Source: Acidobacteriota bacterium
GTDB lineage: Bacteria > Acidobacteriota > Blastocatellia > RBC074
Direction of reading: 5' to 3'
Length of the DNA: 64,000 nucleotides
NCBI GenBank assembly: GCA_016196035.1
Contig: JACPYM010000125.1
Span: 62,001 to 126,000, forward strand
Each line of letters begins with the position of its first letter. Positions within the stretch are counted from its first letter, which is position 1. The notes beneath the pieces are model-generated. The model made no database searches and was not told the DNA's origin. It saw nothing but the letters and a program-made list of their open reading frames with translations. The translations under genes and the position numbers were made by a program. Shown here piece after piece: positions 50,871 to 64,000 of this stretch.

Positions 50871-50961
50871 AAAGCAAAGGGCAAAAGGCAAAAGGCAAAA
50901 ATCAAAAGGGTGGCGCCAGGCTTCCCCCCATTTTTGCCTTTTGCCTTTTGCCTTTTGCTTT
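50871..50961. repeat. inverted-repeat element AAAGCAAAGGGCAAAAGGCAAA
   Basis: Arms 50871-50901 and 50931-50961 are tandem GCAAAAG units and their complement (TTTTTGCCTTTTGCC). It lies between the convergent transpeptidase and flavoprotein genes and may terminate both. Confidence 0.85.
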
Positions 50962-52861: not shown

Positions 52862-52972
52862 GATACAGTACGGGGAGCGTGAGCGACCTGAGCCTCGGTC
52901 GTTAAAGCATTGAGCAGCAACCACACCGCCTAACTCCGCGGCTCAGGTCGCTCACGCTCCCCGTACTGTATC
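52862..52972. repeat. inverted-repeat element GATACAGTACGGGGAGCGTG
   Basis: 33-base arms at 52862-52894 and 52940-52972 are perfect reverse complements around a 45-base core (CGGTCGTTAAAGC and similar). The left arm abuts the stop codon of the EF-P gene and the right arm is just before the Gfo/Idh/MocA gene, so it falls in a co-directional gap. Confidence 0.93.
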
Positions 52973-53980: not shown

Positions 53981-54009
53981 TAAAGGCGAGGCGTACACGC
54001 AGGAAAAGA

Positions 54010-54082
54010 GCATGGAGTTCAAGCTTTAGCTTGTTTGGTGCGCGTTGCGCGCCGCAGACAGCCTGAAGGCTGAACTCCATGC
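54010..54082. repeat. inverted-repeat element GCATGGAGTTCAAGCTTTAG
   Basis: Arms 54010-54034 (GCATGGAGTTCAAGCTTTAG) and 54061-54082 (GCCTGAAGGCTGAACTCCAT) are imperfect reverse complements with a central hairpin of CGCGTTGCGCG. It lies after the Gfo/Idh/MocA stop. Confidence 0.83.
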
Positions 54083-54146
54083 CCTTGTTGCTTGACGAGC
54101 TTTGTTTATGACTGTTTTATGCCTCAAGCACAAAAAGTGGCGTGTG

Positions 54147-54207
54147 GCCGCCCCGCCGCCCGCTGTCACATTCAACAACGCCGACGCCGGCAGCCGCACG
54201 CCCGCAC
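54147..54207 (-). pseudogene. remnant copy of the 3' end of the ATP-grasp gene (direct repeat with 58736-58796)
   Basis: These 61 bases are about 88 percent identical to 58736-58796 in the same orientation. On the minus strand both encode GVRL.ASALLNVTAGG; the changes are mostly synonymous or conservative (for example S to P), so the copy diverged as coding sequence before it was truncated. The rest of the gene is absent. The two copies bracket 4.5 kb carrying two secreted-protein genes and a sigma/anti-sigma pair. Confidence 0.72.
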
Positions 54208-54253
54208 AGGTTGCGGTCGCGCCGCGTTCAAATGAATTGGCGCTGGCCTCGTT

Positions 54254-55777
54254 CTACCGGTCGTCCGCGTCGCGCGGGACAGAGGCCGGTACTGAGGGTC
54301 GCACGAGGGTCAACGAGCCGCTCAGAACGTAAGCGCGTTGGAAGGGCGCGAAGCGGGGCGCCAGCAAGCCGTCGTTGATCTCGCGCGTGACCGCGAAGCG
54401 ATTGAACGCGCTCGGCGGAAGGTACAGGCGCCGGTTTGATTGACCGCCGTCCGAGAAGCCGTTGATGTCCGCTTCTTGAAAAGAGATGACGCCGTCGCCG
54501 TTCTGATCCACTCTGGCGATTTCCTGCGCGTAGGACATAAACAGCCGCATGCCCACGTCAGTCACGTCCGGCTTAAAGGACTTCACCCGCAGGAAGGCGT
54601 TCAGCAGCACTTCCTGATCCAGGGCGCTGGGAATGAAACGGTTGCGCGACTCCCGCTGGGCCGGGTTGGTGGCTTCCGTGCGATCCGGGTCACGCGGGTT
54701 GTCCGGGTTGTCGCCGTAGATCAGTTTGTTATTCACTACGCCTGCCGGGCCTGAACCGGGAATCACCGATTGCAGGCCGTATTGCAGCCCCGCCGCAAAG
54801 GTGCCGGGCACGCCGCCGGTGAAGGGCAGTTCGTAGTGTGGGAAGACCCAGTTGGTGCCCGCATTGAACTCCCAGTAGGCATGTACATCGCTCTGCTGTA
54901 GCGCGTTGAAGGCGCCCATGCTCACCGGATGCGGGACGGTGTTGGGCTGGCGCGCCGGGTCCGGGAAAACATCGTTGACACTGCCCAGGCGCGGGGCGTT
55001 GCCGTCCGCCGTAAAGATGTTGCCGACGACTCGGTTGTTACCTCTCCCGCGCGCCGCGATGGCGTCATAGTCGGCCTGCGTCAGCGTGCCGAACTGCGCC
55101 GTGCCGTCAGCGCGCGGCGGGGCGACACGCGGCACGCGCAGGTCGCTGATCATCCAGCCTTCGTACCAGCCGGCCTCATTGTTGATCACGAACAGCCCGG
55201 AGAAATCCATGAACACATCAATGAACGCGCCGGGATCATTGGGATCGGTCGGCAGACCGGCTTTGGGTTCAATCACGACCCGGACGGAGCCGAGCGTCGG
55301 CAAGCCGCCGTTGGCGGCATTGGCCGCAGTCGGGATGGCCGTGTCGTTGAGACCCGGGACGACGCTGGTGAAGACGTTGGGCTGGAAATGGTTCGTGTCC
55401 AGCAGGTAGTACTGAAAGAGCTGGCTCGGGTCGGCGGCCTCGGCGAAGGCCGTGGTCGGTTCGAAGGTGTGTGGCCGCGCCGCGAGTTCGATCAGCCGCG
55501 CTTTGAGCAGTGGAGGCAAGTGGCTAATGTCTCCGCGCCTGGCAAAGGCTTCCGTCTCATTGCGGGGTCTGGCCTGGCGCGCGGAGCGGGCTTTTGCGCT
55601 CTGGGGCGTCGTTGCCACCTCGCGCGCGGGGGCGCTGCTGCGATCCTGCGCGGCCCGCGCGGAAGTTCCGCTCCGCTCCTGCGCGAAGGTCTTGTTCTGG
55701 GTGAATAGCGCCAGTGCAAAGGCCCCCAGCGCCAGCAGGCAAACCCAGGTTGCGAAGTTGTGGACTTTTTTGCTCAT
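54254..55777 (-). CDS. secreted protein with EF-hand-like motif, unrecognised
   Basis: A 507-residue exported protein. Signal peptide ATWVCLLALGAFALALFTQN is followed by a low-complexity Ser/Arg/Ala-rich segment, then a folded region with SLV- and DP-rich loops from about residue 100. Near residues 440-455 the sequence DQNGDGVISFQEADINGF matches a calcium-binding EF-hand loop (DxNxDGxIxxxE). No known fold is recognised. GGAGTAGAGAAT precedes the ATG. It faces the ECF sigma gene cluster and might be one of its targets; this is inferred. Confidence 0.68.
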   Translation of the reverse strand: MSKKVHNFATWVCLLALGAFALALFTQNKTFAQERSGTSARAAQDRSSAPAREVATTPQSAKARSARQARPRNETEAFARRGDISHLPPLLKARLIELAARPHTFEPTTAFAEAADPSQLFQYYLLDTNHFQPNVFTSVVPGLNDTAIPTAANAANGGLPTLGSVRVVIEPKAGLPTDPNDPGAFIDVFMDFSGLFVINNEAGWYEGWMISDLRVPRVAPPRADGTAQFGTLTQADYDAIAARGRGNNRVVGNIFTADGNAPRLGSVNDVFPDPARQPNTVPHPVSMGAFNALQQSDVHAYWEFNAGTNWVFPHYELPFTGGVPGTFAAGLQYGLQSVIPGSGPAGVVNNKLIYGDNPDNPRDPDRTEATNPAQRESRNRFIPSALDQEVLLNAFLRVKSFKPDVTDVGMRLFMSYAQEIARVDQNGDGVISFQEADINGFSDGGQSNRRLYLPPSAFNRFAVTREINDGLLAPRFAPFQRAYVLSGSLTLVRPSVPASVPRDADDR

Positions 55778-55945
55778 ATTCTCTACTCCTTATTTTTCAG
55801 TTATAGATTATGGCGGCGCCGGGGCGCTCGCCAGTTCGTGGTTGTGAATTGCGCGTGCAGGCGCGTGGGTGGCCGCAGACACACCACGCGCCTGGCGGGA
55901 CCGAAAAACAATCCGGCCATCCGGCGCTGAACTGTTCGCACCGAA

Positions 55946-56812
55946 CTAAGGCTTTATCAGGGAGGTCGCGGGAAGCTGCACCTCCAAATTCCCCTCAGCC
56001 ACATTCGTCCCGCCTCCGGTGGTGAAGGCGTTAGTTCCGCGGAAGCCTGCCGTGAAACTGGCCAGATTGTTTTCTCTGAAAATGTTGTTGATCGAACCTG
56101 CACTGACAGAAACCGCGAAGCCGAATCTGGCGATATGATTGTTGTAAATCAGATCACCACGCGGCCCAGCGGGGTCTTCGCCCGGGGCGGGGTTGTAGCA
56201 GATGCCAAGCAGGTTGTTGGCCGGAATGGCTCCACCGACAATTGTGTTGCCGAAGATACGATTGCCGGTGGATTCGCCGCCACGCACGAAGATGCCTAGA
56301 TTCACCGAACTGATGTTGTTGTCCCGCACCATTCCGCCACGTGAATTGAGCAACTGGATTCCCACTTCACTGGGGCCGCCGCCATTCAGCCCGGGCTGAA
56401 AGCCGCCGCCGGTAATCTGCAAATTTTCGACGTTGACGTTGACCGAGTTCATCACCATCACATTCGAGGCAAACCCGGCGACGCGGCCATTGATCACGCG
56501 AACGCCGGTAGCACCGTTGACGAAGATGCCGCGCCCGGTGTGAGCCGCTTGTGTTGACACGGTGTGGCCGTCCAGATCGAGCGTTACGCTGTCTGCCGTA
56601 ATCGTGATCGCATCGCCGCTTTGAACCTGAATGCTGCGTTTGAGTTTGTAGAGGCCTGAATTGCCGATCGTGAGCGGCAGCGTGGCAAAATCGCGCGAGC
56701 TTTCGATAATGCTGGAATCGAGGTGGTCTTGCGCAAGAGTTGGGTTGGAAATTGCCAGCAGAGTTACGGAGAAAACGCATGCGAAGAGCGCCCCTTTGAA
56801 CAGAAGTTTCAT
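55946..56812 (-). CDS. exported right-handed parallel beta-helix protein
   Basis: A 288-residue protein with signal sequence KLLFKGALFACVFSVTLLAI and a parallel beta-helix (NosD-like) repeat pattern: ITITADSVTLDLDGHTV, GRGIFVNGATGVRVINGRVA, GGMVRDNNISSVNLGIFVRG, IFGNTIVGGAIPANNLLG, and IFRENNLASFTAGFRGT. Such proteins are often polysaccharide lyases or cell-surface adhesins, but no lyase residues can be identified. AAGGAG precedes the ATG. That ribosome site is the last copy of a tandem ATTAAGG repeat (56822-56849). Confidence 0.82.
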   Translation of the reverse strand: MKLLFKGALFACVFSVTLLAISNPTLAQDHLDSSIIESSRDFATLPLTIGNSGLYKLKRSIQVQSGDAITITADSVTLDLDGHTVSTQAAHTGRGIFVNGATGVRVINGRVAGFASNVMVMNSVNVNVENLQITGGGFQPGLNGGGPSEVGIQLLNSRGGMVRDNNISSVNLGIFVRGGESTGNRIFGNTIVGGAIPANNLLGICYNPAPGEDPAGPRGDLIYNNHIARFGFAVSVSAGSINNIFRENNLASFTAGFRGTNAFTTGGGTNVAEGNLEVQLPATSLIKP

Positions 56813-56821
56813 TTGATGTCT

Positions 56822-56849
56822 CCTTAATCCTTAATCCTTAATCCTTAAT
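56822..56849. repeat. four tandem 7-base repeats before the beta-helix gene
   Basis: On the plus strand CCTTAAT is repeated four times at 56822-56849, directly upstream of the beta-helix start on the minus strand (reading ATTAAGG). The unit closest to the start ends in the ribosome-binding sequence AAGGAG. Copy number could vary by slippage. Confidence 0.85.
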
Positions 56850-57246
56850 TTTTTATGGATTCGACCTTCGTTGAACCCGGGGTTGATTGAATGACTCCAG
56901 CGGTTTTGCAGTGGCTATCGTAATTTTGCTTTGCTAACGCTTTGAATTGCGCGCGGCCATCAACGTAGCGTAGCTCCTGCAACAACTATTGGGTCAGCCA
57001 TTAAATTGCCGCTTCCGTGCTTTCGCTTTACCACAACGCGGATGAGTGGCTTGCAAAGCAAAAGCAGCGGTACATTGGGTTCAACAATCTGGAGACAGGG
57101 AAAAGTTCCCGCGCGGAAAAGAAAATGCCTGCTAGGGGAATAAGGCTGAGTGAAAAATAGATTCAGTGATGGGGCGTAGCTTAAAATTCAAACTACAGCG
57201 CCGCCTTTGAAGGTCCGATTCGCGGTTTCATTCAACAGCTTTCCTC
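56850..57246. promoter_or_regulatory. divergent intergenic region between beta-helix and sigma genes
   Basis: About 400 bases of lower GC separate the minus-strand beta-helix gene from the plus-strand ECF sigma gene. It must hold both promoters. ECF -35-like AAC boxes could not be assigned reliably. No ORF with coding character is seen. Confidence 0.4.
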
Positions 57247-57837
57247 ATGATGGATTTGCCCGTAATCAACCAGGCGTGGGCCGAGAATAAAAGGGTTCAA
57301 TTCGAAGCGGCAGCTCTGCCCTTCACGAAATCCCTTTACAATACGGCCTTGCGCTTAACTCATCGTGCTGAGAATGCCAGCGACCTGGTTCAGGAAACCT
57401 ACCTGCGCGCTTACCGCACTTTTCACAATTTCACGCCGGGAACCAATTGCAAGGCCTGGCTGTTTACCATTATGTATTCCGTCTTTGCGAATAAATATCG
57501 CAAGGAACAGCGGGAACCTGAAGCTGTTTCTATTGACGAGCTGGAGGAAAAATTCCAGCGTTGCCTGACGGCGGCGGACTGGGATCCGCAGCGGGCGCTA
57601 AATCCGCGGGGGGTCGGAACGGAAGTAGAGCAGGCGCTCAACCGGTTGCCTGAAGTGTTCCGCTTAGTAGTCCTGCTGGTGGACGTGGAAGAGTTGTCTT
57701 ACGAAGAGGCCGCCGCTATTTTGAATTGTCCGGTAGGGACGGTGCGCTCCCGCCTGTTTCGCGCGCGGAAGTTGTTGTTTTTGGAGTTACAGCAGTACGC
57801 TCTGAAGAAAGGTTACGTTCAAAAGGCGCAAGTATAA
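57247..57837 (+). CDS. ECF-type RNA polymerase sigma factor
   Basis: A 196-residue sigma-70-family ECF factor. Sigma2 region: ASDLVQETYLRAYRTFHNF (about 45-63) and the NCKAWLFTIMYSVFANKYRK helix. Sigma4 HTH: ELSYEEAAAILNCPVGTVRSRLFRARK (about 150-178). There is no region 1 or 3, as expected for this class. The anti-sigma gene follows 2 bases downstream. It begins with double ATG at 57247, without an obvious ribosome site. It likely controls the adjacent secreted-protein genes and its own operon; this is inferred from position. Confidence 0.9.
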   Translation: MMDLPVINQAWAENKRVQFEAAALPFTKSLYNTALRLTHRAENASDLVQETYLRAYRTFHNFTPGTNCKAWLFTIMYSVFANKYRKEQREPEAVSIDELEEKFQRCLTAADWDPQRALNPRGVGTEVEQALNRLPEVFRLVVLLVDVEELSYEEAAAILNCPVGTVRSRLFRARKLLFLELQQYALKKGYVQKAQV

Positions 57838-57839
57838 GA

Positions 57840-58688
57840 ATGCCGCTTGAGACCCGACATTTTAAGGATGAAATTCAGGAGTTGCTGGATAACCGGCTGA
57901 ACCACGAAGCGTGTCTTGAGGTGGAGCGTCATCTGGAAGCGTGCGCGGAATGCCGGCGAGAGTTGGAGGCCCTGCGTTGGACCAGGCAAATTGCCCGGCA
58001 ACAATATGCGGCTGCCTCCGCGCCCGCGAAACTGGAAGAAAACATTTTGGCGGCGTTGGCCCTGGAAGACCGCGAGTCTAGCGCCCCGCCAGTTTTCTCC
58101 TGGGTATGGTGGCGGCAACGGAGCGCGCTCTTGGCTTACGGTTTCGTCCTCTTTGCCGGTGTGGCCCTGGCGTTGTCTTACTTTATGCTCGGCACGCAAC
58201 TGCGTAAGTCACTTGAGCTGCCTACAGCATCGGCGTCATTGCTAACAGCAGTCGCGCGGGATTATCGGAATTACCAGGCTGAAAAATTGCCCCTGATGTT
58301 GCAGACCGGCGCGGTCAATGAACTGGAGCGGTTTTTCTCCGCCGGTGGCATCGCTTTCAACACGCGGGTCTTTGACCTGGCTATGATGAACTACCATTTA
58401 GTGGGCGGACGCGTCCATCAACTGATCGAGCGCCCGAGCGCGCTATTCGTTTACCGTGGGGAAGGCAGCAAGATTTTGATCTGTCAGATGTATCCAGGCC
58501 AGGTGAGGGAGCTACCGCCGGCAGGCGTCAGCTTGCGCGAAAATAAAGGAATCCGGTTCTACATTTACCAGGCGAATGGCTTGACTGTCGTGTTCTGGCA
58601 GGAGGGGGTGATCACGTGTGTGCTGACTTCAGACAGCGCTGCCGAAGAAGTGCTCCAACTTGCTTTTGCGAAGGCCGTGAAGATTTAG
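57840..58688 (+). CDS. anti-sigma factor with zinc-finger (zf-HC2) and transmembrane helix
   Basis: A 282-residue protein. The N-terminal zf-HC2 domain holds the H-x3-C-x2-C motif HLEACAEC near residues 30-38. One transmembrane helix (SALLAYGFVLFAGVALALSY) lies at about 95-115. The extracytoplasmic C-terminal half (about 120-282) is of unrecognised fold. Start at 57840, two bases after the sigma stop, so they are translationally coupled; the longer frame overlaps the sigma gene. It probably sequesters the sigma factor and releases it on an envelope signal sensed by the C-terminus. Confidence 0.86.
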   Translation: MPLETRHFKDEIQELLDNRLNHEACLEVERHLEACAECRRELEALRWTRQIARQQYAAASAPAKLEENILAALALEDRESSAPPVFSWVWWRQRSALLAYGFVLFAGVALALSYFMLGTQLRKSLELPTASASLLTAVARDYRNYQAEKLPLMLQTGAVNELERFFSAGGIAFNTRVFDLAMMNYHLVGGRVHQLIERPSALFVYRGEGSKILICQMYPGQVRELPPAGVSLRENKGIRFYIYQANGLTVVFWQEGVITCVLTSDSAAEEVLQLAFAKAVKI

Positions 58689-58710
58689 GCTGCGCTGCAG
58701 TGTCAGCAGG

Positions 58711-60072
58711 TCATTCCAGCAGCAACAGCGGCGTCGCCGAACCGCCCCCCGCCGTCACATTCAACAACGCCGATGCCGACAGCCGCACGCCCGCGCCGAC
58801 GACGTCTTCGCCGCCCCAGGTGTAGGGATCGAAATCCACATAGCGGTCTTCATACGAGATGCCATTGCCGGTTAGTGTCGGGAAGCTCTGGCTCAGTACT
58901 TCCACGCGTTCCTGCAAAACGAATGAACCGTCGAGCGCGTCGTACAACGCCCCTTGCCAGCGCGCTTCGTCGCCATCCCAGCCGAGCACGACGCCTTTGC
59001 CGCCATAATCGCTGTTGGGTTTGAGCACCAGTTTCTCGCGGTTGGCGGCGGCGAAATCGAGCAGGTCAATCGTTTTGCCGCGATACGTCGTCACGCCATC
59101 GCGTAGCTTGCGCGTCCAGGGAATGTGGCGGCGCAGGGCTGAAATCTCTTCGACGGAATAGAGGTGCGCATACTCAGGATCGTCGAGCAGGGCGAAGGTG
59201 GCCTTTTTGAAAAGCATCTGCACGCGGAAGGAATTGGCAACGCAGACGGCGTGGTCGCGCGCGGCCCGCACCAGCGGAGTTTGCAGGCCGCAACGCTCGA
59301 TCAATTCGCCGACGACTACGCGTTTGTAAACCAGGTTGATTTTGAAATCGCCTGCGCGCAACCAGCCGCCGCGATATTCCAGTTCGCGCGGGTCAACGAT
59401 GATGGTGGGGTAGCCTTGCGACTCGAAATAGTCGCGGCAGATTTCAAACTCGGCGTAAGTCGCGGCTTCGTTCCAATCTACGATGGCGATGCGCGGGCGT
59501 TCCTGCCAGCCCCATTGCCGGTAGGTGTCGAGCAGCGTTTGCAGCAACTGCGGTTTCATTGGCACGCGGCGGACGGGGAAGCGGCGGCTGAATTCTTTGA
59601 GCAACTGCATCTCGCTGAAAATTTCGCCCAGCGTGTCGCCGTACAAAATGCCGCCGGGGCTGTCGGCGTTGTATTCGACGAAGCTGAAATCGGCGTGCGA
59701 ATTCTGAAAGGCATCCAGCCGCCCGCTGGCATCCGGCGCGCGAAAGCCCGGCTCGATCTGAATGATTTGCTCTTCGTTCGGCGACAAATCCAATTCGGCG
59801 CGTAACCGTGCATCACGCATCAGCGCGGCATACAGTTTTTCAATCGCCGACAACACCAACGCTGATTCGCGCCGCATGTATTCGTATTGCCAGGCGGTGA
59901 CAAACAGGGGCCGCAGCACATTACAAATCGGGCGCTTGCCGAAACGCAGTCGGTGGCGCGCGGTGCCTTCCACCAGTTTGGCTTGCGCGTCAGCGGCCAG
60001 CGAGCCGTTGAGCAGGGAATGATAGTAATCTGTTGCGTCTGTAAGAATGGGTTGAAGGGATGGTTGGGGCAT
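58711..60072 (-). CDS. ATP-grasp-type ligase-like protein
   Basis: A 453-residue protein. The N-terminal half (about 1-200) begins DYYHSLLNGSLAADAQAKLV and includes FVEYNADSPGGILYGDTLGE. The C-terminal half carries the ATP-grasp features: EKLVLKPNSDYGGKGVVLGW (lysine and glycine-rich phosphate loop) and FVLQERVEVLSQSFPT. It resembles glutathionylspermidine-synthase/carboxylate-amine ligase families, forming a peptide or amide bond, but the substrate is unknown. Its 3' end is duplicated at 54147-54207. No clear ribosome site; ATG 60072 chosen. It precedes a MacB-type permease on the same strand. Confidence 0.75.
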   Translation of the reverse strand: MPQPSLQPILTDATDYYHSLLNGSLAADAQAKLVEGTARHRLRFGKRPICNVLRPLFVTAWQYEYMRRESALVLSAIEKLYAALMRDARLRAELDLSPNEEQIIQIEPGFRAPDASGRLDAFQNSHADFSFVEYNADSPGGILYGDTLGEIFSEMQLLKEFSRRFPVRRVPMKPQLLQTLLDTYRQWGWQERPRIAIVDWNEAATYAEFEICRDYFESQGYPTIIVDPRELEYRGGWLRAGDFKINLVYKRVVVGELIERCGLQTPLVRAARDHAVCVANSFRVQMLFKKATFALLDDPEYAHLYSVEEISALRRHIPWTRKLRDGVTTYRGKTIDLLDFAAANREKLVLKPNSDYGGKGVVLGWDGDEARWQGALYDALDGSFVLQERVEVLSQSFPTLTGNGISYEDRYVDFDPYTWGGEDVVGAGVRLSASALLNVTAGGGSATPLLLLE

Positions 60073-60281: not shown

Positions 60282-61577
60282 TCACCGCTCGTAACGTAAT
60301 GCTTCAATCGGGTTGAGTCGTGCCGCGCGCCAGGCGGGCCACAGCCCGAAAAATAGGCCCACGCTGACCGAAACCAGCAACCCGGCAGTAACCGCACCCG
60401 GTGAAATGGTCGCCGCAAAATTCGGTTGTGCCCATTGAATCAGCAGCGCCAATGCCACGCCGGTTAGCACACCCGCCACACCGCCCAGCAAGGTCAACAT
60501 AACGGCTTCGAGCAGAAACTGCCAGAGCACATCGCGCCGCCGCGCGCCCACCGCTTTGCGCAATCCTATCTCCGCCGTGCGCTCGGTCACACTGACCAGC
60601 ATGATATTCATCACGCCGATGCCGCCGATCAACAAACCAAGCGAAGAGACGCCGATCAACAAGATCCAAATGCCGCTCGAAGCCTGCGTCCAAATGTCCA
60701 CCATTTGATTTGACGCGAAGACCGCAAAGGTGTCCGGCGCATTGAGCGGCAGACGGCGGCGGCGACGTAACCACTCGCGCACTTCATTCATGCCTTGCTC
60801 GACGGCTTCGGGTGAGGCGGCGAGGCAGAAGAATTGCAGAAACTCTTTCTCGCGCTCGGAATAGTATTTGTCGAAGGTGCCGAATGGAATCAGGATGAGT
60901 TGATTCTCGCTCGGTGCGCCGAAGAACGTATCACGCCGTTCGATCAAGCCGATCACTTCGTAACTCTGCCCATCAATGTGCAACAGCTTGCCGAGTGGGT
61001 CTTCGGCGCTGAAAAGTCCATCGGCGATGGCTTGCCCGATCACGACCACGTTGCGCCGATGCGTCGAATCGCTTTGCGTGATGAAGCGGCCCCGTTCCAC
61101 CAGAATGCCGGTGGCGTCGGTAAAGAACTGCTCGACGCCGCGCATAATCGGCCCTTGCGCCTCGATGCCTTTGTACCAGACGTGCAGCGGCTCGAACGGC
61201 ATCTTGGCGTAAAACGGGCTGAGCACGCGCACCGACGGGCAATTGGCGCGGATGTCCTGTGCGTCCTCGACGGTCAGCGGCGGACGCTTTTTGAGCAGCG
61301 CCATGAAATCGGGATTGCCCATGTCTGAAAAACCCATGCGCCCGACGATGAAGCTGCTCGGATTCAACCGCGTCAGCGCGCGCTTGACCATGCCATCCAG
61401 CCCCTGAATCAACGCCACCACGACGATGACCGTCGCGACGCCCATAATGATGCCGGCCAGCGTGAGCGAAGATTGAAAGCGGTGTTGATTGATCGAACTG
61501 AGCGCCAGCGTAAAGGCTTCGCTGAACTCGGTCGTGCGGTGAGTACTGAGCAGCGGTTTGTAATGTTCCGATTTCAT
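60282..61577 (-). CDS. MacB-type ABC transporter permease (FtsX-like)
   Basis: A 431-residue permease with the MacB_PCD/FtsX organisation. The N-terminal helix is [21 protein letters not shown] periplasmic domain (about 60-290) follows, including [16 protein letters not shown]. Three C-terminal helices contain [20 protein letters not shown], the FtsX core [20 protein letters not shown] and a final helix. There is no ATPase in the same gene. It resembles permeases of the MacB family that export peptides or lipoproteins through a partner. The next permease (62652-63872) probably belongs to the same cluster. I start at 61577 since the longer frame runs into a hairpin element. Confidence 0.86.
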
Positions 61578-61592
61578 TGCAGGGCAAGTGCT

Positions 61593-61690
61593 GTACAGCA
61601 GGCTGCCAGCCTGCTGCTGTTGCGCCAATGGTAGAGTCAAAATGACTGCGTTCTCGGCTACGTTCCCAGCAGGCTGGCAGCCTGCTGTAC
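61593..61690. repeat. inverted-repeat element GTACAGCAGGCTGCCAGCCTGCTG
   Basis: Arms 61593-61616 and 61667-61690 each are internally palindromic (GCAGGCTGCCAGCCTGC) and are reverse complements of each other. It is intergenic, between the BtpA-family stop and the permease start. Confidence 0.88.
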
Positions 61691-61707
61691 ATCCGAATCA
61701 AAGCTGC

Positions 61708-62511
61708 TTAATGCCGCAAGCGCGCGACGCGCGTCATCAACTGTTCGACGCGCTGCGGGTCAACCGTGTTCGCCCAATGCCCAGCCACTTTGAAATACGA
61801 GCCGATGATGAAACCGTCAGCGGCGGCATAAAAGCTTTCAAGATTATCTGGCCCCACGCCTGAACCGAGCAGCACCGGCAAACTGCCGTGCGCTTTGGCT
61901 TCAGCCACATCGGCCAGTTGCGGCGGCTGCCCCGTGACGCTGCCCGTGATGATGACGGCGTCACCGCGCATGAACGCCACCGCTTCCGCCGTTGCGCCCA
62001 ATCCGACATCCGCCGTGAGCGCGTGCGCGGCGTGTTTCTTTTTCACGTCCGCCCAGACCTGCACGCGTTCGGCCCCGATCAGCTTGCGATAGCGCAGCAA
62101 GCGCGCGGCGGACGATTCGATCAAGCCTTCATCGGCGACGTGGGCGAAGACGTAACCTTCGACGCGGATGAAATCCAGCTTGGCCGCGTGCGCCACGGCC
62201 ATTGCTTCAAGATTGGCGCCCGCCAGAATTTGAATACCGGTGGGCAGGCCGCTGGCGTTTTTGACCGCCTGTCCGATCACGGTCATGGCGGCGACGATCT
62301 CTGGCCCGACGCTGCCGCGCAAATAGGGCACGTCGTGCATGTTCTCGATGCCGATGCCGTCTACGCCGCCGTCCCGATACAAGCGGGCTTCGCGTTCGGC
62401 GAGCGCGACGAGTTCGGCGATGCTTTGCGTCTGCGCGGGCGTGCCGGGCAACGCGCCGACGTGAATCATGCCAATGATGGGTTTGGGTTTTGGGAAAAGG
62501 GAAGTCAGCAT
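61708..62511 (-). CDS. BtpA/SgcQ-family protein
   Basis: A 267-residue BtpA-family TIM-barrel protein. It contains IIGMIHVGALPGTPAQTQSI at the start, GGVDGIGIENMHDVPYLRG, and the GSGVGPDNLESFYAAADGFI phosphate-binding end. Cyanobacterial BtpA stabilises photosystem I, but this family is wide; non-photosynthetic members such as SgcQ have unknown sugar-related roles. No photosynthesis genes occur here, so the cyanobacterial role is unlikely. It lies between two permeases, with hairpin elements on both sides. Confidence 0.87.
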   Translation of the reverse strand: MLTSLFPKPKPIIGMIHVGALPGTPAQTQSIAELVALAEREARLYRDGGVDGIGIENMHDVPYLRGSVGPEIVAAMTVIGQAVKNASGLPTGIQILAGANLEAMAVAHAAKLDFIRVEGYVFAHVADEGLIESSAARLLRYRKLIGAERVQVWADVKKKHAAHALTADVGLGATAEAVAFMRGDAVIITGSVTGQPPQLADVAEAKAHGSLPVLLGSGVGPDNLESFYAAADGFIIGSYFKVAGHWANTVDPQRVEQLMTRVARLRH

Positions 62512-62651: not shown

Positions 62652-63872
62652 CTATTCATAACGTAACGCTTCAATGGGCGACATCTGGGCTGCGCGCCGC
62701 GCCGGATAAACGCCCGCGACAACACCGACCAACGACGAAACCGCGAAACCGAGCAGCGCCACAAATGGGCGCGAGCTAAAGGGCAGCGCCGTCAGCCAGG
62801 CAATCGAACGCGCGACCAGCAAACCCGTTGACGTGCCCACTAGGCCACCGAACAGACAGAGCAACACCGTTTCGGCTAGGAATTGCCGCAGCACATCGCG
62901 TTGGCGCGCGCCCAGCGCTTTGCGCAAGCCGATCTCGCGCGTGCGTTCGCGCACACTGACCAGCATGATGTTGGTCACGCCCAGTCCGCCGACCGTCAGC
63001 GCGATGCCCGAAATCAAAATCGTCGCCAGATAAAACCCGCCGATCACGGCTTGATAAATCGCCAGCGCCGAATCGGAAGTGATGATGAAGAACGTGTCTT
63101 CTTCTCCGAAAAGCAAGTGGCGCTGTTTGCGCATCAGCCCGCGCACTTCGTCAATGGCCGAGGCGGCATTCGTCGCCGCGCGTTGCTGGCAATAGATGGT
63201 CAGCGCTTGATGCGCGCCGAAACGGTGCAGCAGCGTGGTGAGCGGCAACACAATGAACCGATCTTGTGAGCGTCCAAACAGCGCACCGCGCCGCGCCATC
63301 ACGCCAATCACAGTGAAAGGTTTGCCCAGCACGCTCAACTCCGCGCCCAGCGGATTGGTGTCGCCGAACAGATCATCCACAATGTCCGCGCCCAACAGGC
63401 AAACTGAAGCATGTCCGCTTTCTTCCGAAGCAGTGAAAAAGCGCCCCTGGGCAACTTCGATGCGCTCAATGTCAAACTGGCTGGCGGTCAGGCCGCGCAA
63501 TTGCACGCTGCCGGTCGTGGTGCCGCGATATTTCAAGCGGCCCGCGAAATTCGCTTCGGCCCCAACCGCGCCGCATTCGCGCGAACTCTCGCGCAGGGCG
63601 GCGAAATCCTCATACTCGATGCGCTTCCATTTCGAAGCTTTGATGAAATCGTTGACGTTGAGAATGCTGGCCGGCAGTTGCGAAACCTGAAAGACATCGG
63701 GTTGCAAGGTCACAAGCTTGTCGGTGATGTAGCCGCTCGCTCCATCAATCAGCGCGACAATCGCCACCAGCGCGCTGATGCCGACCACGATGCCCAGGAT
63801 CGCCAGCGCCGAACGCAGCTTGTTGGCGAGCAACGACCTGAGCGCAGTGGCGAGAATTTCGCTTCGATTCAT
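62652..63872 (-). CDS. MacB-type ABC transporter permease (FtsX-like), second copy
   Basis: A 406-residue permease. It has N-terminal helix [20 protein letters not shown], a periplasmic domain (about 55-265) with FLLGEEDTFF-like loop absent of lipobox, and C-terminal FtsX core [20 protein letters not shown]. It shares the family core sequence with the permease at 60282 but is otherwise diverged, so the two are paralogues. It begins at ATG 63872, where the family N-terminus starts. The upstream region to the window end has no ATPase gene; it may lie beyond the window. Confidence 0.86.
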
Positions 63873-64000
63873 AGCGGTTGGTTGAACGACGATGCGCGTG
63901 GTTAGCCGCCATAGCATGCAAGAAAAAGAAGGCTCACCACGAAGAAACGAAGAGGACGAAGAAGCCGCTGGAACCACAGTAAATGCAAGTTCTGCCAGCT
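63873..64000. other. window end; sequence upstream of the permease
   Basis: The last 128 bases contain a single arm of the CACGAAGAAAC repeat family (63937-63963) and no gene that can be supported. The matching arm of the repeat, if any, lies beyond the window. Confidence 0.5.

Follow-up and report, generated by a model that had tools for sequence, protein, structure and literature searches.

How did the 3' end of one gene come to stand twice, in the same orientation, on either side of four other genes? The question is raised by a 64-kb stretch of an Acidobacteriota genome (assembly GCA_016196035.1, contig JACPYM010000125.1, positions 62,001 to 126,000), here called the window and numbered from its own first base. 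In it, an intact ATP-grasp-like gene of 453 aa (58711-60072, minus strand) ends beside a cassette of two exported-protein genes and an extracytoplasmic function (ECF) sigma/anti-sigma pair (54254-58688), and on the far side of the cassette lies a short tail (54117-54205, minus strand) that matches the end of the ATP-grasp gene. With modest confidence, we consider that the cassette arrived beside an ATP-grasp gene end and that a second version of this gene was lost except for its tail.

Gene searches covered 38 genomes, namely the one holding the window (G000) and 37 relatives, and wider searches covered 161 other genomes of the class and a phylum sample of 395 other genomes. Among those named below, G001 is a congener of G000, G009 belongs to the same family and has its own genus, G010 represents another genus, G014 another family, and G072 a different family of the same class; G134 is a draft genome, 75% complete.

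The ATP-grasp gene and its second end

The direct repeat reported in the preliminary description is borne out: 54144-54205 and 58733-58794 are 89% identical over 62 nt and share perfectly matching stretches of 20 and 15 nt. The homology exceeds what was first noted, since with a 2-nt gap it extends toward the tail's own stop codon at 54117-54119, which is in frame past this 2-nt frameshift. When the ATP-grasp DNA was searched against its own genome (E <= 0.001; best 40 of 118 first-look candidates), three matches were found. One is the gene itself; another is the tail, which corresponds to gene nt 1279-1358 at 83% identity (E 1.1e-15); the third, weak and 68% identical over 142 nt, lies on contig 59, which carries a distant paralogue with 38% protein identity. 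Chance similarity of the tail to the gene is ruled out by the E value of 1.1e-15. Upstream of 54205 the clear match stops, and 48 nt later comes the stop codon of the first cassette gene, encoding a 507-aa protein; the same search found no further piece of a second ATP-grasp copy within the 4.5 kb between the repeats.

Over 81 aligned nt (27 codons, with the 2-nt insertion omitted), the tail and the live gene differ at 13 sites, of which three are first, none second, and ten third codon positions (P 0.0016 for at least 10 of 13). With the majority state among seven family relatives as reference, nine changes fall on the tail's branch, seven of them at third positions (P 0.008), and four fall on the live gene's branch, three of them at third positions. 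Orthologues of the same seven relatives differ from the live gene at 14 (G010) to 23 of the 81 sites and from the tail at 20 to 28, so that the divergence of the tail from the live gene about equals that of the nearest orthologue from another genus. This third-position bias, together with the other-genus-like divergence, indicates that the tail diverged mostly while protein-coding, to about genus-level distance, and is no fresh copy; judged by its sequence, it is what remains of an ATP-grasp gene end that formerly encoded protein and evolved on its own. Recent copying of the present gene end, by replication slippage or as a long target-site duplication with neutral decay thereafter, would suit the position and orientation of the tail, but the seven of nine third-position changes and the 13 versus 14 of 81 differences make it scarcely credible.

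The tandem duplication with one copy deleted that was proposed earlier therefore does not hold in a simple, recent form. An older form of it is a lesser but real possibility: native tandem ATP-grasp paralogues, born of an old duplication, would both have diverged under selection, and the left copy would have been deleted by or with the arrival of the cassette. Such a history would agree with the evolution of the tail as coding sequence, with its orientation, which is the same as that of the gene, with an Ala codon common to tail and gene where seven family relatives have Ser (G014 also has Ala), and with the retention of the older paralogue on contig 59. It fits poorly with the 4.5 kb lacking any further piece of a second copy, and with the relatives. 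In none of the other 37 genomes do two ATP-grasp matches lie 50 kb or less apart; same-contig pairs elsewhere are more widely spaced. Moreover, a tail pattern, drawn from these tails and perhaps missing distant ones, matched 10 of the 38 genomes and gave two copies in G000 only, leaving the other nine without a second tail. Recurrent insertion at ATP-grasp ends was rejected on the same result of the pattern search, with the same reservation about distant tails.

The assignment of the gene itself stands in part. It comes closest to the circularly permuted type 2 ATP-grasp proteins, and the Pfam evidence is weak, as PF14403 scores below its cut-off (16.5 versus 32 bits, E 0.0043); support comes from a solved relative, the putative glutathionylspermidine synthase 3n6x, which matches residues 119-447 (E 7.9e-7).

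Gene content and borders of the cassette

Two exported proteins and an ECF sigma/anti-sigma pair had been described within these 4.5 kb, and signal-like segments and domain models agree with that description. Both exported proteins have N-terminal hydrophobic, signal-like segments. The 507-aa protein (54254-55777, minus strand) reaches the cut-off of no Pfam or NCBIfam model and contains one EF-hand-like loop, also below cut-off; in its family, the fully displayed member likewise has no Pfam family above cut-off, and the best E value among nine members is 0.019. A match of this family in the Protein Data Bank (E 0.59) was taken as chance, and a single-sequence structure prediction of the protein (mean pLDDT 35) was not used. 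No match to it was found in plasmid or phage collections, and none was confirmed in viral contigs. The second exported protein (288 aa, 55946-56812, minus strand) is distantly NosD-like and probably, from its sequence, a parallel beta-helix, with all models below their cut-offs (TIGR04247, 32.1 versus 300 bits; PF05048, 21.9 versus 23.6 bits; and the parallel beta-helix repeat model).

The sigma factor (196 aa, 57247-57837, plus strand) has Sigma70_r2 (PF04542, residues 29-89), Sigma70_r4_2 (PF08281, residues 126-177) and TIGR02937 above cut-off, and its regions 2 and 4 without a long region 3 mark it as an ECF sigma factor; among the best 25 of 92 NCBIfam matches, only the superfamily model TIGR02937 reaches cut-off. 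The anti-sigma factor (282 aa, 57840-58688, plus strand) is of the zinc-binding membrane type, combining an N-terminal zf-HC2 domain (PF13490, 25.4 bits versus a cut-off of 22.2) with one hydrophobic segment around residues 94-121 (hydrophobic 19-residue windows start at 94-103) and a C-terminal domain. The word "divergent", applied to the pair in the preliminary description, is correct for its relation to the exported-protein genes on the minus strand and not for the two genes themselves, which are co-directional.

The borders of the cassette are gene-precise and lie at the outer stop codons. On the left, homology to G072 begins at 54250, near the end of a 48-nt junction (54206-54253) that has no clear homology to the ATP-grasp gene; on the right, homology ends at 58687 with G009 and at 58688 with G072, leaving a 22-nt junction (58689-58710) between the stop codon of the anti-sigma gene and that of the ATP-grasp gene.

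Direct repeats at a gene's 3' end may suggest an integrative element that entered by site-specific recombination, with the repeats as attL and attR and the integrase since lost. The intact gene end, the displaced tail on the far side, and the identical runs of 20 and 15 nt are what such an element would leave, and in G000 the flanking direct repeats score 93, versus at most 22 in 30 shuffles. However, family models find no recombinase among the four cassette products (shorter open reading frames were not scanned); the flanks of the cassette in G009, G072 and G134, compared over 296-522 nt per side, score 22, 20 and 20 versus shuffled maxima of 23, 20 and 25; and the similarity of the tail continues toward the stop codon with third-position-biased changes. 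The first two of these results make integrase att sites unlikely, and we give the integrative element as a whole little credence.

The cassette in other genomes

The distribution of the cassette is patchy. In G009, the beta-helix, sigma and anti-sigma genes form one unit without the 507-aa gene; its DNA is 73-80% identical to G000, and the match spans window positions 55945-58687 minus 120 nt, ending at the outer gene ends. The 4.7-kb contig that carries it has none of nine other window genes tested. The 120-nt stretch, 56893-57012, lies in the divergent promoter region and is present in G000 and absent from G009. In G072, the 507-aa gene faces the sigma and anti-sigma genes without the beta-helix gene; the DNA is 74-78% identical, and the match to 54250-58688 is broken into segments and ends at the outer stop codons. 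The G072 anti-sigma factor (L141 2756-3775) is 57 residues longer than its G000 counterpart, the extra being a proline/lysine-rich linker from membrane segment to outer domain. Compared with these two genomes, only G000 combines both exported-protein genes with the pair. Sigma identity to G000 is 80% in G009 and 74% in G072, and anti-sigma identity 65% and 59%, respectively. In G134 (L140 923-3317), where a sigma gene was not detected, an intact 507-aa gene lies beside a shortened anti-sigma gene, a state that may reflect a decaying cassette or an assembly fault.

Among the 37 relatives, none has a match to the 507-aa protein; in the wider class it is found in two of the 161 other genomes (G072 and G134, 81-82% over residues 57-507), and in the phylum sample, where at most three candidates were scored per genome, in eight of the 395 (55-63%). 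One of these eight distant loci (G328, L092 5567-7677) has a same-strand sigma-like gene of 29-35% identity just upstream, a hint that the association of the 507-aa gene with a sigma factor may be older; with these queries, no sigma gene was detected at the other seven loci. No ATP-grasp tail was found beside the 507-aa gene in the eight distant loci by tail motif, nor in the G134 and G072 loci by blastn or tblastn. The beta-helix protein occurs in six of the 161 other class genomes, in three of which (G009, G124 and G099) a sigma gene is adjacent; in G124 and G099 this is a more distant sigma gene (40-43% identity) with an anti-sigma gene, all in the same direction. Of the 37 relatives, one has a close anti-sigma factor and another 25 give weaker matches. 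The idea that the 507-aa gene and the beta-helix/sigma unit were two separate acquisitions was rejected, since G072 has the 507-aa gene and the pair as one unit. No title among those found by literature searches treats this combination of a sigma/anti-sigma pair with exported proteins.

Evidence for horizontal transfer

The trees of the cassette and of its neighbour conflict. In the beta-helix tree (six rows, the partial G099 protein omitted), G000 groups with G009 (support 94/94); the ATP-grasp tree instead places G000 beside the congeneric G001 (97/98) and G009 among members of its own genus (96/94). Protein identities are 81% for G000-G009 and 71% for G006-G009 in the beta-helix protein, and 69% and 86%, respectively, in the ATP-grasp protein, whose best cross-family match is 54% (G072 and G134 being outside this search). 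These conflicting trees and the unrelated contexts of the unit support horizontal transfer, and we infer that the four-gene unit was probably acquired in this way. The comparison of GC content with neighbours, proposed at the outset, reveals departures in both directions: GC at third codon positions is 0.805 in the 507-aa gene and 0.63-0.67 in the beta-helix, sigma and anti-sigma genes, against 0.69-0.76 in eight neighbouring genes. Thus, the suggestion of an inserted cassette gains support from a unit that occurs with either exported-protein gene in unrelated contexts and whose composition is unlike that of its neighbours. A broader proposal, that a recombinase-less cassette with a fixed sigma/anti-sigma switch and interchangeable exported cargo (the 507-aa protein, the beta-helix protein or the two together) circulates among families of Acidobacteriota, inserts next to the 3' ends of genes through recombination at local gene-end homology, and leaves displaced gene tails behind, is rather doubtful.

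A candidate regulatory motif and a proposed course of events

Within the 64-kb window, the motif GGGTTCAAC has two exact copies; both fall in the 434 bp that separate the divergent beta-helix and sigma genes, and the motif is a candidate promoter or operator element. One copy lies upstream of the beta-helix gene (56870-56878, minus strand) and has one change in G009; the other lies upstream of the sigma gene (57077-57085, plus strand) and is exact in G009, and the sigma-side site of G072 retains six of its nine bases.

Membrane anti-sigma factors of this type hold an ECF sigma factor at the membrane through a cytoplasmic zf-HC2 domain until an envelope signal frees it. Here, the anti-sigma factor would tether the sigma factor in the same way until its outer domain detects an envelope signal; the freed sigma factor would then activate its own operon and the divergent exported-protein genes, perhaps via the GGGTTCAAC sites. 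As to the order of events, the unit 54254-58688, acquired horizontally on this reading, may have come to rest beside an ATP-grasp 3' end, leaving the 89-nt tail as the leftover of another version of this end that had evolved independently. Most simply, the tail would be the displaced end of the resident gene and the cassette would have brought the present end, or the roles of the two ends would be swapped; the tail would have acquired its frameshift at some point.

Several points weigh against arrival of the cassette with loss of a second gene version. The genomes searched yielded neither a donor in which the cassette adjoins an ATP-grasp gene nor a relative with an empty site, and the stretch 54206-54253 has no homologue, which leaves the exact joint unexplained. 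The tail is a short sequence: when 57 ungapped nt are resampled, the live gene comes out closest to it in 92% of cases and the two are mutually closest in 69%, and the third-position bias on its branch depends on majority polarisation from seven relatives. The beta-helix tree has only six rows and a support just under the usual 95, the beta-helix gene has no detected nearby sigma gene in G006, G007 and G122 (3/6), the cross-family identities for G072 and G134 lack a core gene of the same pair for comparison, and paralogy with differential loss could mimic conflicting trees, although transfer seems to us the better account. As for the motif, it was picked after viewing the alignment, no exact copy stands before the 507-aa gene, and with 0.40 copies expected per window, at least two appeared in 8 of 100 window shuffles; hence the placing of the copies, rather than their number, is telling.

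The surrounding region

To the left of the tail, the oxidoreductase gene is kept in seven family loci, adjoined by EF-P in five of the seven and by an NAD-binding gene too in three; to the right, the permease pair is kept in all four family loci fetched. In none of these loci (seven and four, respectively) is the ATP-grasp gene beside the oxidoreductase gene or the permease pair. As the ATP-grasp gene lies elsewhere in family members, this neighbourhood was probably put together in the present lineage. The permease genes are of the MacB/FtsX type (60282-61640 and 62652-63998), and their relatives adjoin each other in the four family loci; here the two are separated by a gene at 61708-62511.

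A dispersed palindromic repeat element (54006-54086), with 39-nt arms that are 77% complementary, lies where the ATP-grasp remnant faces the oxidoreductase gene, between the two; it has 57 matches in its own genome (E <= 0.001), both strands counted and many being the same place twice. Further near-perfect inverted repeats with arms of 25-37 nt at 52862-52972, 50871-50961 and 61592-61691 possibly represent other dispersed palindromic families.

Comparison with known systems

Integrative elements commonly sit at gene 3' ends, and remnants without an integrase exist. The locus resembles them in the direct 3'-end repeats that flank probably foreign genes; unlike them, it has no integrase that was found, and no such repeats surround the cassette in three other genomes. 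The locus also illustrates that a gene-end repeat need not be a target-site duplication, and that the codon positions of its differences can distinguish a fresh copy from an end of older origin.

The resemblance to ECF sigma factors with zinc-binding-type (class I) anti-sigma factors lies in Sigma70 regions 2 and 4, a zf-HC2 anti-sigma gene directly downstream, one membrane segment, and divergent candidate targets. What differs is that the facing genes encode exchangeable exported proteins of unassigned function. Such pairs are the subject of PMC7406223. If the course of events proposed here is true, the locus illustrates on a small scale how, in Acidobacteria, a regulatory switch may travel together with its exported targets and how the cargo is exchanged.

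Finally, Solibacter Ellin6076 is described in PMC3174227 as a large acidobacterial genome with gene acquisition and old, scattered paralogues. G000 is comparable: it belongs to the same phylum, measures 9.6 Mb, and has genes that were probably acquired as well as an old, diverged gene copy, although a genome-wide trend is at issue there and one small locus here. The locus is probably a case of fairly ordinary gene turnover, though the exported partners of its switch seem exchangeable.

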